NCBI GenBank assembly: GCA_027306785.1
Contig: DAHUZB010000033.1
Location: forward strand, 1 to 64,000
DNA length: 64,000 nt
Source of the DNA: Vulcanimicrobiota bacterium
GTDB taxonomy: Bacteria; Vulcanimicrobiota; Vulcanimicrobiia; Vulcanimicrobiales; Vulcanimicrobiaceae
Direction of reading: 5' to 3'
A program made the position numbers and the translations under genes. How positions within the stretch are numbered: the first letter of the stretch is position 1; each line of letters starts with the position of its first letter. Under the pieces are notes generated by a model, which saw only the letters and a program-made list of their open reading frames with translations, was not told the origin of the DNA and made no database searches. Below, piece by piece: positions 7,101 to 32,888 of the stretch.

Positions 7101-7520
7101 CTAGATGCGCTGCATGCGCATCGGCACGCCGCCGATCGTGGGGCGCGAGCCCGCGCTCTGGGTGAAGGGTGCCTGCGGCGGCGCTTCGGGCACCGGGCCG
7201 CCGTTGCCGACGTAGCGGTAGGCGAGCGAATAGGCGAGATAATCGTTGTAGGCTTCGCACTCGCCGGTAACGGTGAAGCAGCGCACGATCCACATCGGCA
7301 CCGTGACGAGCAGTCCGATGCCCGTAAAGAGGGCGAGCGACATCAGCACCCCGCGCTTGTAGTCGCCGAAGTAGTAGGCTTCGCCGCCGACGATGCCGAG
7401 CAGGATGGTGAGGATCTGCGCGAGCGCCGGATCCTTGGCGTAGCGGCGGTATTCGTACATGAACGCGGACTGGCTCTCGGTGCGGATGTAGGCGAGCAGC
7501 GACTGGACGTACGGTGTCAT
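7101..7520 (-). CDS. TM2-domain membrane protein
   Basis: 139 residues from ATG at 7520, chosen because a GGAGGAG Shine-Dalgarno (complement of 7531-7537) sits ten bases upstream. The centre ALAQILTILLGIVGGEAYYF then GDYKRGVLMSLALFTGIGL is the two-helix TM2 module (GG...YxG...G), followed by a cysteine-containing loop (CFTVTGECEAYNDY) and a proline-rich tail. TM2 proteins are small membrane proteins of unknown function. It lies 49 bases downstream of the YyaL-type gene on the same strand and probably shares its transcript. Confidence 0.75.
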   Translation of the reverse strand: MTPYVQSLLAYIRTESQSAFMYEYRRYAKDPALAQILTILLGIVGGEAYYFGDYKRGVLMSLALFTGIGLLVTVPMWIVRCFTVTGECEAYNDYLAYSLAYRYVGNGGPVPEAPPQAPFTQSAGSRPTIGGVPMRMQRI

Positions 7521-22940: not shown

Positions 22941-22949
22941 CGCGGAAAA

Positions 22950-22983
22950 CAAGATGGGCCGGCATTGCTGCCGACCCATCTTG
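22950..22983 (+). terminator. Terminator after the aldo/keto reductase gene
   Basis: CAAGATGGG pairs with CCCATCTTG (9 bp), with an inner CGGCA-TTGC-TGCCG stem separated by a small mismatch. It begins 9 bases after the stop. The following CTTGCTGC is not a true T-run, but the stem is long. Confidence 0.75.
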
Positions 22984-23011
22984 CTTGCTGCACTCTACGA
23001 ATTGGAGTCCT

Positions 23012-23046
23012 AAGGGGCGCGTTGGTGGAGGACAACGTCGCCCCTT
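23012..23046 (-). terminator. Long hairpin downstream of the GWGPK peptide gene
   Basis: AAGGGGCG (23012-23019) pairs with CGCCCCTT (23039-23046), extended by CGTTG/CAACG with one bulged T. On the minus strand the loop reads TCCTCCAC, complementary to a Shine-Dalgarno. It lies 43 bases after the peptide gene stop on the minus strand. Probably that gene's terminator, without a T-run. Confidence 0.5.
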
Positions 23047-23088
23047 TCCATCTCACACGAAACGTGCGGATGAAACTTTAGGTTTTGA

Positions 23089-23250
23089 TTAGTTCCAGCG
23101 AACGAGGCCGCTGGAGAGGCCGACAACTTTCGGTCCCCAGCCGCCGAACGAGGAGCTGCTCGGCGCGGCTTCGATCACTTGCGTGAACGAGACCACGGGG
23201 CGGCGCTCTTGTTCTTCGACCACGGCCTGCGGTTGCGAGGGCGTATTCAC
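23089..23250 (-). CDS. 53-residue peptide with GWGPK motif
   Basis: Start GTG at 23250 is chosen because AAGGA (complement of 23257-23262) lies seven bases upstream; an in-frame GTG at 23280 would add ten residues but lacks this. The N-terminal half is charged and polar (PSQPQAVVEEQERRPVVSF). The C-terminal part is SSSSFGGWGPKVVGLSSGLV ending RWN. FxGWGPK recurs in the 36-residue peptide at 30443-30553. There is no signal peptide or membrane helix. It is a single-gene unit between two terminator-like hairpins. I know no named family. A modified or secreted peptide precursor is one possibility, unproven. Confidence 0.55.
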   Translation of the reverse strand: MNTPSQPQAVVEEQERRPVVSFTQVIEAAPSSSSFGGWGPKVVGLSSGLVRWN

Positions 23251-23370
23251 AACGATATCCTTCCGGACTTCACCGGACACGAGCAGTTGCCCGATCCGTT
23301 AGTCACTCTACACTTCGCAGTACGCGGTATCTATGAGTTTTGTTTCACACGTTTTTCGCCACGATGCGAG

Positions 23371-23395
23371 AAAAAAGCGTCAGGCCGTGGGACCT
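23371..23395 (-). terminator. Terminator of the DUF5916 gene
   Basis: On the minus strand AGGTC-CCAC-GGCCT forms a 5-bp stem (one G-U pair), followed by GACGC and six T (complement of 23371-23376). It starts five bases after the stop of the gene ending at 23401. Confidence 0.5.
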
Positions 23396-30358: not shown

Positions 30359-30387
30359 TTGACGGCGCGGGCGGCCTGTCCTATTGT
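30359..30387 (+). promoter_or_regulatory. Sigma-70-type promoter of the peptide-GntR-ABC operon
   Basis: TTGACG at 30359-30364, a 17-base spacer, then TATTGT at 30382-30387. The best-looking vegetative promoter in the window, 56 bases before the GWGPK peptide ATG. Its -10 end overlaps the operator palindrome. Confidence 0.75.
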
Positions 30388-30403
30388 ACTAGTGTACTAG
30401 TAC
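30386..30403. promoter_or_regulatory. Palindromic operator, probable GntR (YtrA-type) site
   Basis: GTACTAGT-GT-ACTAGTAC is a perfect 8+8 inverted repeat around two bases, placed across the -10 end and the expected transcription start. YtrA-type GntR repressors typically autoregulate through such palindromes, and the GntR gene is second in this operon. Assignment of the regulator to this site is inference. Confidence 0.75.
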
Positions 30404-30442: not shown

Positions 30443-30553
30443 ATGACCCGTTTCATCGATCGTCCGACCGAGACCGAGAGCCGCGAGACCCGCGTTCGCG
30501 TTCCGCAGCAGATGCCCGCCCCGATGTTCCAAGGCTGGGGCCCGAAGTTCTAA
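30443..30553 (+). CDS. 36-residue peptide ending in GWGPKF
   Basis: MTRFIDRPTETESRETRVRV, then PQQMPAPMFQGWGPKF and stop. AGAAGG at 30430-30435 is a fair Shine-Dalgarno. It is the first gene after the promoter/operator and ends six bases before the GntR start. The final FQGWGPK repeats the FGGWGPK of the peptide at 23089-23250, while the rest differs: a charged leader-like half followed by the conserved end. No secretion signal is visible. Its place at the head of an ABC-transporter operon makes a signalling or exported peptide possible, but nothing in the sequence proves it. Confidence 0.6.
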   Translation: MTRFIDRPTETESRETRVRVPQQMPAPMFQGWGPKF

Positions 30554-30559
30554 ACGGCC

Positions 30560-30958
30560 ATGCCCGTCGTTCTCACGGTCGACCCGCGTAGCGGCGTCCC
30601 GATCTATCTCCAGGTGATCGAGCAGGTCAAGCGCTCGGTGGCGCTCGGGATCCTCGCAGGCGGGGAACAGCTCCCGACGGTCAAGCAGCTCGCGCTCGAT
30701 CTCACGATCAATCCCAACACCGTTGCCAAAGCCTATCGCGAGCTGGAGCGCGACGGCGTGATCGAGACCTCGCCGGGGCGCGGCTCGTTCGTCAAGAGCA
30801 ACGGCGCCGCCGACTCCACCAAATCCGCCGCGCGCGATGTCGCTCGCGACGCGTTCGATGCGGCGGTGCGAGAAGCAAAATCGATCGGACTCGGCGCGGC
30901 CGAGGTACGAGACCTGGCCGCCGCGGCGATCGACCGCTGGTTCACGGAGGAGCAATGA
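30560..30958 (+). CDS. GntR-family transcriptional regulator, YtrA subfamily
   Basis: 132 residues. Winged helix at about 10-80 (GVPIYLQVIEQVKRSVALG, LPTVKQLALDLTINPNTVAK, ELERDGVIETSPGRGSFV), followed by only a short helical tail. This small size is typical of the YtrA subfamily, which controls ABC transporters rather than metabolic enzymes and lacks a large ligand domain. It overlaps the ABC ATPase gene by ATGA (30955-30958). Likely repressor of its own operon at 30386-30403. In Bacillus the equivalent operon responds to cell-wall antibiotics. Confidence 0.92.
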   Translation: MPVVLTVDPRSGVPIYLQVIEQVKRSVALGILAGGEQLPTVKQLALDLTINPNTVAKAYRELERDGVIETSPGRGSFVKSNGAADSTKSAARDVARDAFDAAVREAKSIGLGAAEVRDLAAAAIDRWFTEEQ

Positions 30959-31869
30959 GCAGCACCCTTACCGTTTCGCATCTTCGCAAGACGTACGGAC
31001 CGTACGTCGCGGTCGACGATCTCTCGTTCGAGGTCCCCGAAGGCTGCGTCTTCGGATTGCTCGGCCCCAACGGCGCCGGCAAATCGACCACCTTCAAATG
31101 TATGCTCGGTCTCGCTCGCGCGACCGCGGGCAGCGTGCTCTTCGGCGGCAAGCCGCTCGAGCCCGCGCTCTTCGAGTCGATCGCGTACGTGCCGGAGCGC
31201 AGCGTGCTCTACGATTGGATGACGGTCGCCGAACACGTCGAGATGCAGCGCCGCGCGTTTACCTCGTTCGATCCGAAAGCAGCGTACGAATTGCTCGCGC
31301 AGTTCGGCATCGATCCGCGCAAAAAAGCGCGCGCGCTTTCCAAAGGCATGAAGACGGCGACGATGGTCGCGCTCGCGATCGCACGCCGCGCGCAAACGCT
31401 CATTCTCGATGAACCCACGAGCGGGCTCGATCCGATCAACCAGCGCCACGTCCTCAATTTGATCATCAACGAATCGGCGCGCGGCGCGACCGTGATCTTC
31501 TCGTCGCATCAGATCGGCCAGGTGGAACGCGCCGCGGAGAGCATCGCGGTGATCGATCGCGGACGACTCGCGCTCGAAGGCGCGGTCGACGATCTGAAGG
31601 CCGGACGCAAGATCGTCGAAGCGATCTTCCCGTCCGAAACGTACGCGCTCGACGGCGTGAGCGGCGATTCGCGCGTGGCTCGTCTGGATCGCACCGGACG
31701 TATCGTACGCGCGCTCGTGACGAGCGACGCCGGCGAATTCGTCACGCGGCTGGAAGCGCTCGGCGGCAGCGGCGTGCGCATCGTCGACCTCAATCTCGAA
31801 GACATCTTTTTGTACGCGGTCGCGCCGAGCGATGCAACGGCCGACGTGGTGGGAGGCGCATCGAAATGA
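30955..31869 (+). CDS. ABC transporter ATP-binding protein (YtrB-like)
   Basis: 304 residues. Walker A GPNGAGKS at 37-44, signature LSKGM at 128-132, Walker B LILDEPTSGLDP at 149-160, and switch His in FSSHQIGQVERAAE. The Q-loop position reads YVPERSVLYDWMTV: Glu81 stands where Gln is usual, a change seen in some exporter ATPases with short families but worth noting. The C-terminal 90 residues form an accessory beta-rich domain. It couples to the permease encoded next (overlap 31866-31869). Confidence 0.93.
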   Translation: MSSTLTVSHLRKTYGPYVAVDDLSFEVPEGCVFGLLGPNGAGKSTTFKCMLGLARATAGSVLFGGKPLEPALFESIAYVPERSVLYDWMTVAEHVEMQRRAFTSFDPKAAYELLAQFGIDPRKKARALSKGMKTATMVALAIARRAQTLILDEPTSGLDPINQRHVLNLIINESARGATVIFSSHQIGQVERAAESIAVIDRGRLALEGAVDDLKAGRKIVEAIFPSETYALDGVSGDSRVARLDRTGRIVRALVTSDAGEFVTRLEALGGSGVRIVDLNLEDIFLYAVAPSDATADVVGGASK

Positions 31870-32888
31870 CCTATGTCGAATGGCTGCGCGTGCGAAACGT
31901 GCTGCGCGTCACCGCGATCGTGCTCGGGGCGCTCATCGTGCTCGCCCTTGCCGTGCGCTTGAGCCTAATGCATTACGGCTCGGTCGATGCGTACGTCAAT
32001 CAGCTGCGCCACGAGCAGGGTGCGAAGGTGAGCACGACCACGCTTCCCGACGGAACGCGCCGCACCACGATCGACACGCCGAAGGGCGAGCACGTGGTGA
32101 TCGACGATCGCGGGTATCGCGGCCAACATATCGTGATCACGCAGGCTAAGCGCGGAACGCATGACGGCGGACACTTGTTCGTCGGCATCGGCAGCGTGCG
32201 CGTCGATGAGTCCACGACGGGCAACAAAACGACGACGGTCGCCGATACCGATTCCGCGACACCCTTCTACTATCTGCTCGGCTTCGCCCAAATCGTCGCG
32301 TTGATCGTGGCAACCGTGCTCGCCGCACCGTTCGCGCGCGAAAACGACGGCCATCTCGAACTCGCTCTCACCAAACCGATACGACGCGACGCGTACGCCT
32401 TGCGGACGATGGGCGTCGATGCGCTCGGCATCCTGGCCGCCGCCGCGCTCACGATCGTCGCCGCGATGGTGAGTCAAACGATCTTCGAGGTGCCACGTTA
32501 CGAGTTCGGCGGTCCGATCGTCTTCGTCGCGCTCATTACAATCGTGCTCCCGCTCGCGTGGTATGCGATGCTCGCGGCGGCGACCGCATCGATGCGACGT
32601 AGCCACGGTGTGCTGCTCGGCCTCTCGTGGCCGATCGTGGGCATCACCCTGCTCCTTGCGGCGCTTCCGATGCAAGGCTCGATCGTCGGCGTCTTCGTGC
32701 ACGCGGTCGCGCATGCGCTCTCGTGGCTGATTCCGGTCAGCTACGTCAACTTCAACGTGTCGTATCCGACGACCGGTACCCCCACGTTCTACGATCCGAC
32801 CTTCGGTCCGCGTTTCGCCGCGGTCACCCTTCTCACGCTGATCTATGGTGCGCTCGCCGTGTGGCAGTGGCGGCGCGTGGAGGCCTAA
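31866..32888 (+). CDS. ABC-2-type transporter permease
   Basis: 340 residues. Helix 1 lies at about 14-36, followed by a soluble extracytoplasmic region of about 90 residues rich in Thr/Asp (TTTLPDGTRRTTIDTPKGEH). Five more helices follow from about residue 135 (PFYYLLGFAQIVALIVATVL, then SWLIPVSYVNFN near the end). PFARENDGHLELALTKPIRR between helices 2 and 3 is the ABC-2 coupling-type motif. With the preceding ATPase it forms an exporter. Substrate unknown; the large outer loop could bind a peptide or lipid. Confidence 0.85.
   Translation: MTYVEWLRVRNVLRVTAIVLGALIVLALAVRLSLMHYGSVDAYVNQLRHEQGAKVSTTTLPDGTRRTTIDTPKGEHVVIDDRGYRGQHIVITQAKRGTHDGGHLFVGIGSVRVDESTTGNKTTTVADTDSATPFYYLLGFAQIVALIVATVLAAPFARENDGHLELALTKPIRRDAYALRTMGVDALGILAAAALTIVAAMVSQTIFEVPRYEFGGPIVFVALITIVLPLAWYAMLAAATASMRRSHGVLLGLSWPIVGITLLLAALPMQGSIVGVFVHAVAHALSWLIPVSYVNFNVSYPTTGTPTFYDPTFGPRFAAVTLLTLIYGALAVWQWRRVEA

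Follow-up and report, generated by a model that had tools for sequence, protein, structure and literature searches.

Within the window analysed here, a 64,000 nt stretch of DNA, two short ORFs on opposite strands carry the motif F-x-G-W-G-P-K close to their C-termini (Table 1). The first, a 53-residue ORF on the minus strand (hereafter 23089), was found as originally predicted, complete with its GTG, TAA, motif codons and ribosome-binding site, and it indeed lies between terminators: a terminator-like hairpin upstream (23395..23382) and a strong hairpin followed by TTTT downstream, which is kept in relatives. The second, ~7 kb away, was likewise recovered; it begins with ATG and ends in ...MFQGWGPKF-stop. 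Searching the whole 3.14 Mb assembly for GWGPK returned two occurrences, i.e. these two ORFs. The earlier description of 23089 as monocistronic stands as far as protein genes are concerned (the next gene, encoding an aldo/keto reductase, is convergent and 148 nt away), but not with respect to a conserved structured RNA predicted on the same transcript. Neither this RNA, with its anti-Shine-Dalgarno loop, nor the predicted ECF-type promoter of the unit figured in the earlier description. Start codons were assigned by rule, and genes in relatives were called with a simple purpose-made caller.

Table 1. Features of the 23089 unit and of the GntR operon at 30443 (window coordinates)
Feature	Position	Strand	Remarks
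ECF-sigma-type promoter TGAAAC-N17-CGTA (predicted)	23321..23347	-	TGAAACAAA in 13/13 tailed-type loci
Ribosome-binding site GGAAGGA	23258..23264	-	7 bases 5' of GTG
53-aa FxGWG small protein, tailed subfamily	23089..23250	-	GTG start, TAA stop; 13 tailed-type loci read
FGGWGPK motif codons	23128..23148	-	Third positions vary synonymously between members
3'-UTR stem-loop 1 (TTTCATC...GATGGAAA)	23045..23075	-	Read in sequence
3'-UTR stem-loop 2, CCUCCACC loop at 23024..23031	23014..23044	-	Covariation; model R1 match
Conserved linker TCGTAGAGTGCAGCAA	22985..23000	-	Little or no variation in 7 sequences
Intrinsic terminator hairpin + TTTT	22946..22983	-	Kept in relatives
Promoter TTGACG-N17-TATTGT overlapping palindrome GTACTAGTGTACTAGTAC (putative GntR operator)	30359..30403	+	Kept in most relatives compared
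36-aa FxGWG small protein, first in GntR operon	30443..30553	+	ORF read
GntR (YtrA-like) regulator	30560..30958	+	Pfam GntR 4.8e-14
ABC transporter ATPase	30955..31869	+	Pfam ABC_tran 1.4e-25
ABC permease-like membrane protein	31866..32888	+	Recurrent third operon gene (family F0); function inferred from position and sequence

Across this genome and its relatives, FxGWGPK gave 39 matches versus three with the reversed pattern, and in the 32 loci read around such matches it always closed a short open frame, nearly always one residue before the stop. Relaxing the pattern to FxGWGP[KR] gave 105 matches in 71 of 149 phylum genomes versus six controls, whilst the stop-anchored form F-x-G-W-G-x-x-[LIFV]-stop gave 169 matches in 97 of 117 Eremiobacteria genomes versus six reversed. 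Nearly all stop-anchored matches that were read are the ends of short ORFs preceded by a good ribosome-binding site, and a genome often holds two to four FxGWG ORFs. A stop-anchored FxGWGPK scan of 84,980 species returned 50 stretches, 37 of them from Candidatus Eremiobacterota, four from unlabelled bacteria and nine scattered among others; those unlabelled stretches that were read contain the same kind of ORF, and the nine scattered ones are taken as chance. To judge from these relatives, the assembly itself would belong to Eremiobacterota. A lack of further GWGPK small ORFs in relatives had been named beforehand as grounds for dismissing the match, and the opposite was found (105 versus six). 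These three comparisons contradict the view that two spurious ORFs resemble each other by chance; nothing is left in its favour, and with a probability of practically nil it counts as refuted. No match was found to any Pfam family (E 0.01, 30 members) or to any NCBIfam family, and a literature search returned no paper with GWGPK, in agreement with the original remark that no named family with this motif was known; nor did we find small-protein or sRNA literature on class Eremiobacteria. We regard the FxGWG ORFs as an undescribed family of tiny predicted proteins, almost confined to the class Eremiobacteria (soil bacteria), which with ~150 genes or more is ready to be named.

F, G, W and G of the motif were fixed by the query itself. 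Among the 130 members collected, FxGWG is followed by P (104) or V (23), one member in five having V or I instead of P, then by K (78) or R (41), and then by L, I, F or V. The stop codon lies three residues past FxGWG in 121 members and exactly 14 residues past it in six tailed ones, and the tails of this 23089-type group mostly end in -WN or -LN. The median length is 39 aa and the net charge is near +2, with Arg making up 11.9 % of the residues before the motif; a Shine-Dalgarno-like sequence precedes most members. A constant end is joined to variable N-terminal parts, bearing out the original picture of a short conserved core on variable leaders. The companion claim that the two window peptides have no other similarity is nearly right, except for a weak R-x-P-[VI]-x-[LI]-P stretch that many members carry ~8-14 residues before F. 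Members are hydrophilic, and neither a transmembrane segment nor a hydrophobic signal-like stretch was seen in their sequences. AlphaFold2 returned a low-confidence model (mean pLDDT 63) without secondary structure, so that no binding mode can be argued from it.

Pairwise comparison of five tailed orthologs gave dN values of 0.10-0.34 versus dS values of 0.49-1.07, and dN was also below dS in a set of related GntR-group members, which indicates purifying selection in both ortholog sets. Furthermore, TGA is avoided as a stop codon (13 of 131 members versus 350 of 854 neighbour genes, and none of 65 in the GntR group), a bias whose p-value is overstated because the members are related rather than independent. 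An apparent enrichment of AGA and AGG at the K/R position was discarded, as the search pattern FxGWGP[KR] admitted only A[AG][AG] there and the enrichment is therefore at least partly ascertainment.

A downstream gene could be read for 79 members; it is on the same strand in 61, mostly within 42 nt, and convergent in 18. The arrangements that recur on the same strand are GntR-ABC ATPase-permease, toastrack DUF4097 with DUF6249, and PadR-HAAS, contexts confirmed by Pfam with the HAAS score below its curated cut-off; in these groups the sORF stop and the start of the next gene are mostly separated by -19 to +42 nt. Single members stand in front of a BlaI-type repressor gene with an M56 BlaR1-type peptidase gene, an ECF sigma gene and a PadR gene; at the first of these (L186) the peptidase is fused to pentapeptide repeats. 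At L054, L056, L066, L167, L169, L171, L173, L203 and L205 an FxGWG sORF stands first in a toastrack DUF4097 plus DUF6249 operon that is divergent from an ECF sigma gene, and eight of these loci carry a TGAAAC-N16-CGTA promoter. The shared theme of these predicted contexts is regulator and envelope-stress operons, with most members directly upstream. No partner gene common to the FxGWG paralogs was found, and no recurrent maturase was seen in the neighbourhoods read.

At the GntR operon, the GntR-type palindrome overlaps the -10 element and is strongly conserved in the class. Throughout the GntR group the regulator gene starts a few bases past the sORF, and no separate ribosome-binding site is obvious for the GntR gene in the window. 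At two loci of genus g25 (L138 and L140) promoter, operator and ribosome-binding site are kept, the FxGWG sORF is cleanly missing, and the GntR gene lies directly 3' of the GGAAAGGA site. The idea that genus g25 had naturally lost the family altogether was considered and rejected: a model of the 23089 RNA (see below) matches in five g25 genomes, and tailed ORFs with GWGPR occur in two. Only the GntR-operon member is therefore missing there, as seen in two g25 genomes, and the loss argument was dropped. A small protein gene within a GntR (YtrA) and ABC-transporter operon is also known in the YtrG system, where YtrG is a small transmembrane protein (PMC12772383), unlike the hydrophilic FxGWG members.

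Upstream of 23089, TGAAACAAA is followed ~17 bases on by a GTA element, 188-204 nt before the motif in all 13 tailed-type loci, and no sigma-70 type site was seen in this region. The unit carries a predicted ECF-type -35/-10 promoter, as membership of an ECF-sigma regulon requires. Downstream of the ORF, covariation supports stem-loop 2: six pairs changed on both sides (2.9 in shuffles), there were 12 such cells (3.6 in shuffles), and 88 % of cells were paired versus 31-51 % with partners slid, all from seven sequences and hence of modest depth. The CUCCACC loop is invariant and complementary to Shine-Dalgarno sequences; in the relatives L052 and L055 the loop of the terminator hairpin likewise bears CTCCACC. 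A CTCCACC-loop hairpin was found downstream of a small protein gene at eight loci, and more were found by searching with model R1, which comprises hairpin and linker only and no part of the ORF. R1 matches the window at 22985..23045 (E 3e-18, the window being among the model's own sequences); with E values up to 0.01 accepted, it has matches in 21 of the 148 genomes from the phylum. Unseen matches with the loop have an FxGWG ORF just upstream, namely ...FAGWGPNV...RWN (g7), ...FSGWGPRV...KRLN (g25) and ...FAGWGPRFN (G012). As an RNA-only model thus recovers FxGWG ORFs in further genera, RNA, promoter and peptide are inherited together. R1 matches lacking the CTCCACC loop are weak, as are the two outside the family, and all of these may have arisen by chance. 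Rfam gave no match near threshold, and the element would be a new structured RNA for class Eremiobacteria. Anti-Shine-Dalgarno loops were not found after any of the other subfamilies, one match 260 nt away being inside the GntR gene; as the sRNA-like element accompanies the tailed subfamily only, the rest of the family is not explained by RNA.

In Alphaproteobacteria, ccaF1-CcsR, CIN1 and cuckoo loci carry CCUCC anti-Shine-Dalgarno loops, and each genome holds several small-protein paralogs, most of them without the RNA, as is also the case for the FxGWG family. In Rhodobacter, the RpoH promoter of ccaF1-CcsR precedes the gene for an RNA-binding DUF1127 protein of 71 aa, and RNase E matures the four sRNAs encoded downstream of it (PMC10253847). 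DUF1127 proteins are rich in Arg, and protein-protein contact is the mode of action of some (PMC12501420). Like the ccaF1-CcsR1-4/CIN1/cuckoo RNA family, 23089 runs from a stress-type promoter through an Arg-rich small protein to hairpins with anti-Shine-Dalgarno loops and a terminator, with a CCUCC-type loop hairpin downstream of the small protein gene. In contrast, the 23089 protein is not DUF1127 (no Pfam match); the profile matched none of 30 members, whose Arg-richness, size below ~70 aa and several paralogs are resemblance only. Its promoter is ECF-type where theirs is RpoH-type, its loop is CCUCCACC where theirs is CCUCCUCCC, the 23089 type has one or two hairpins, the phylum is unrelated and no curated RNA family in Rfam matches. 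These differences in protein family, promoter class and loop, together with the lack of an Rfam match, mean that 23089 is not a ccaF1-CcsR member; we conclude by analogy that it would work like such a locus without being homologous to it. This suggests an independent origin, in another phylum and with an unrelated protein, of the plan of small protein plus anti-Shine-Dalgarno RNA known from alphaproteobacterial stress loci.

For 23089 we favour, with slightly better than even confidence, an ECF-controlled unit that combines a trans-acting FxGWG protein, docking on a partner shared by the paralogs, with a 3'-UTR sRNA lowering translation through its anti-Shine-Dalgarno loop. An ECF sigma factor would transcribe the unit under stress, giving one transcript with two products. 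One would be the 53-aa protein, probably unfolded and most likely acting in trans, whose FxGWGP[K/R]-hydrophobic segment would dock on the presumed partner common to all paralogs. The other would be an sRNA derived from the 3'-UTR; because its CCUCCACC hairpin loop is complementary to Shine-Dalgarno sequences, we infer that it pairs with those of target mRNAs, which would lower their translation under stress. An mRNA led by GGTGGAGG is the kind that stem-loop 2 RNA would be expected to repress. The loop's role could also be limited to mRNA stability or termination. Other paralogs would be produced from the first gene of a regulator or stress operon (GntR-ABC, toastrack/DUF6249, PadR-HAAS and BlaI-BlaR1), and a trans docking motif would explain operon-head and stand-alone members alike. 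That the family stands before several unrelated types of stress regulator makes a shared partner directly testable. A wider proposal, tentative and rather doubtful, takes FxGWGP[K/R]-hydrophobic as a class-wide C-terminal code through which many small proteins, otherwise unrelated and each produced along with a stress regulator of its own, address one shared partner, with one subfamily also releasing a global anti-Shine-Dalgarno RNA; if true, stress-regulator operons would be wired together via a common peptide plug.

The FxGWG ORFs might instead be cis-acting leader peptides, with the motif, sitting in the ribosome tunnel at the stop, controlling termination and re-initiation on the next gene. 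Such a nascent-chain role would fit the tight coupling to the next start, the motif's place in the last eight codons, the rarity of TGA stops and the GntR gene, which lacks an obvious ribosome-binding site in the window and directly follows GGAAAGGA in sORF-less g25. Leaders of the TnaC, SecM and ErmCL kind likewise are short ORFs directly upstream of a regulated gene and conserved at the C-terminus. In the GntR, toastrack and PadR groups a candidate regulated gene does lie downstream on the same predicted transcript, but none does at 23089, where the 14 residues past FxGWG are followed only by RNA and terminator. Many FxGWG members in fact have no downstream gene of this sort, the 18 of 79 facing a convergent gene must act otherwise than as cis leaders, and, unlike in arrest leaders, one motif is common to unrelated operons. 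The exchange of P for V or I and the inflated p-value of the stop-codon bias also weaken this reading, and to our knowledge the motif matches no known arrest motif. We therefore consider it unlikely as an account of the whole family, although docking and nascent-chain roles may each be true for different subfamilies.

Two further readings are less probable still. If FxGWGPK were the core of a peptide that is modified or secreted (a RiPP or pheromone), its precursors would show the constant short C-terminus and variable N-termini seen here, and R-x-P-[VI]-x-[LI]-P could serve as recognition sequence; yet no recurrent modifying enzyme was seen in the neighbourhoods read, nor a signal-like stretch in the sequences, and typical RiPP clusters neither stand at the head of regulator operons nor are kept across genera in this way. 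Processing into leader and core is not supported, and we hold this reading to be quite improbable. That the RNA alone matters at 23089, the ORF being a passenger needed, for example, in transcript processing, would agree with the strong covariation of the stem and with the RNA being kept at loci whose peptide motif has diverged (GWGPN, GWGPRFN); the low dN relative to dS and the motif's occurrence in many genes without 23089-type RNA speak against it and make it very improbable.

With regard to possible targets of the favoured sRNA, a 6-mer complementary to the loop occurs at 59 of 847 gene starts versus 13 control positions, and the predicted targeting is no more specific than general Shine-Dalgarno pairing. 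Within the window, GGGTGGAGGAG upstream of the minus-strand gene start at 7101 is complementary to the loop, making this gene a possible target. Additionally, GTAGAGTG occurs twice on the minus-strand 23089 transcript, at ~23311..23304 after the promoter and at ~22999..22991 in the 3' linker; the repeat, also present in several relatives, is possibly a binding site.
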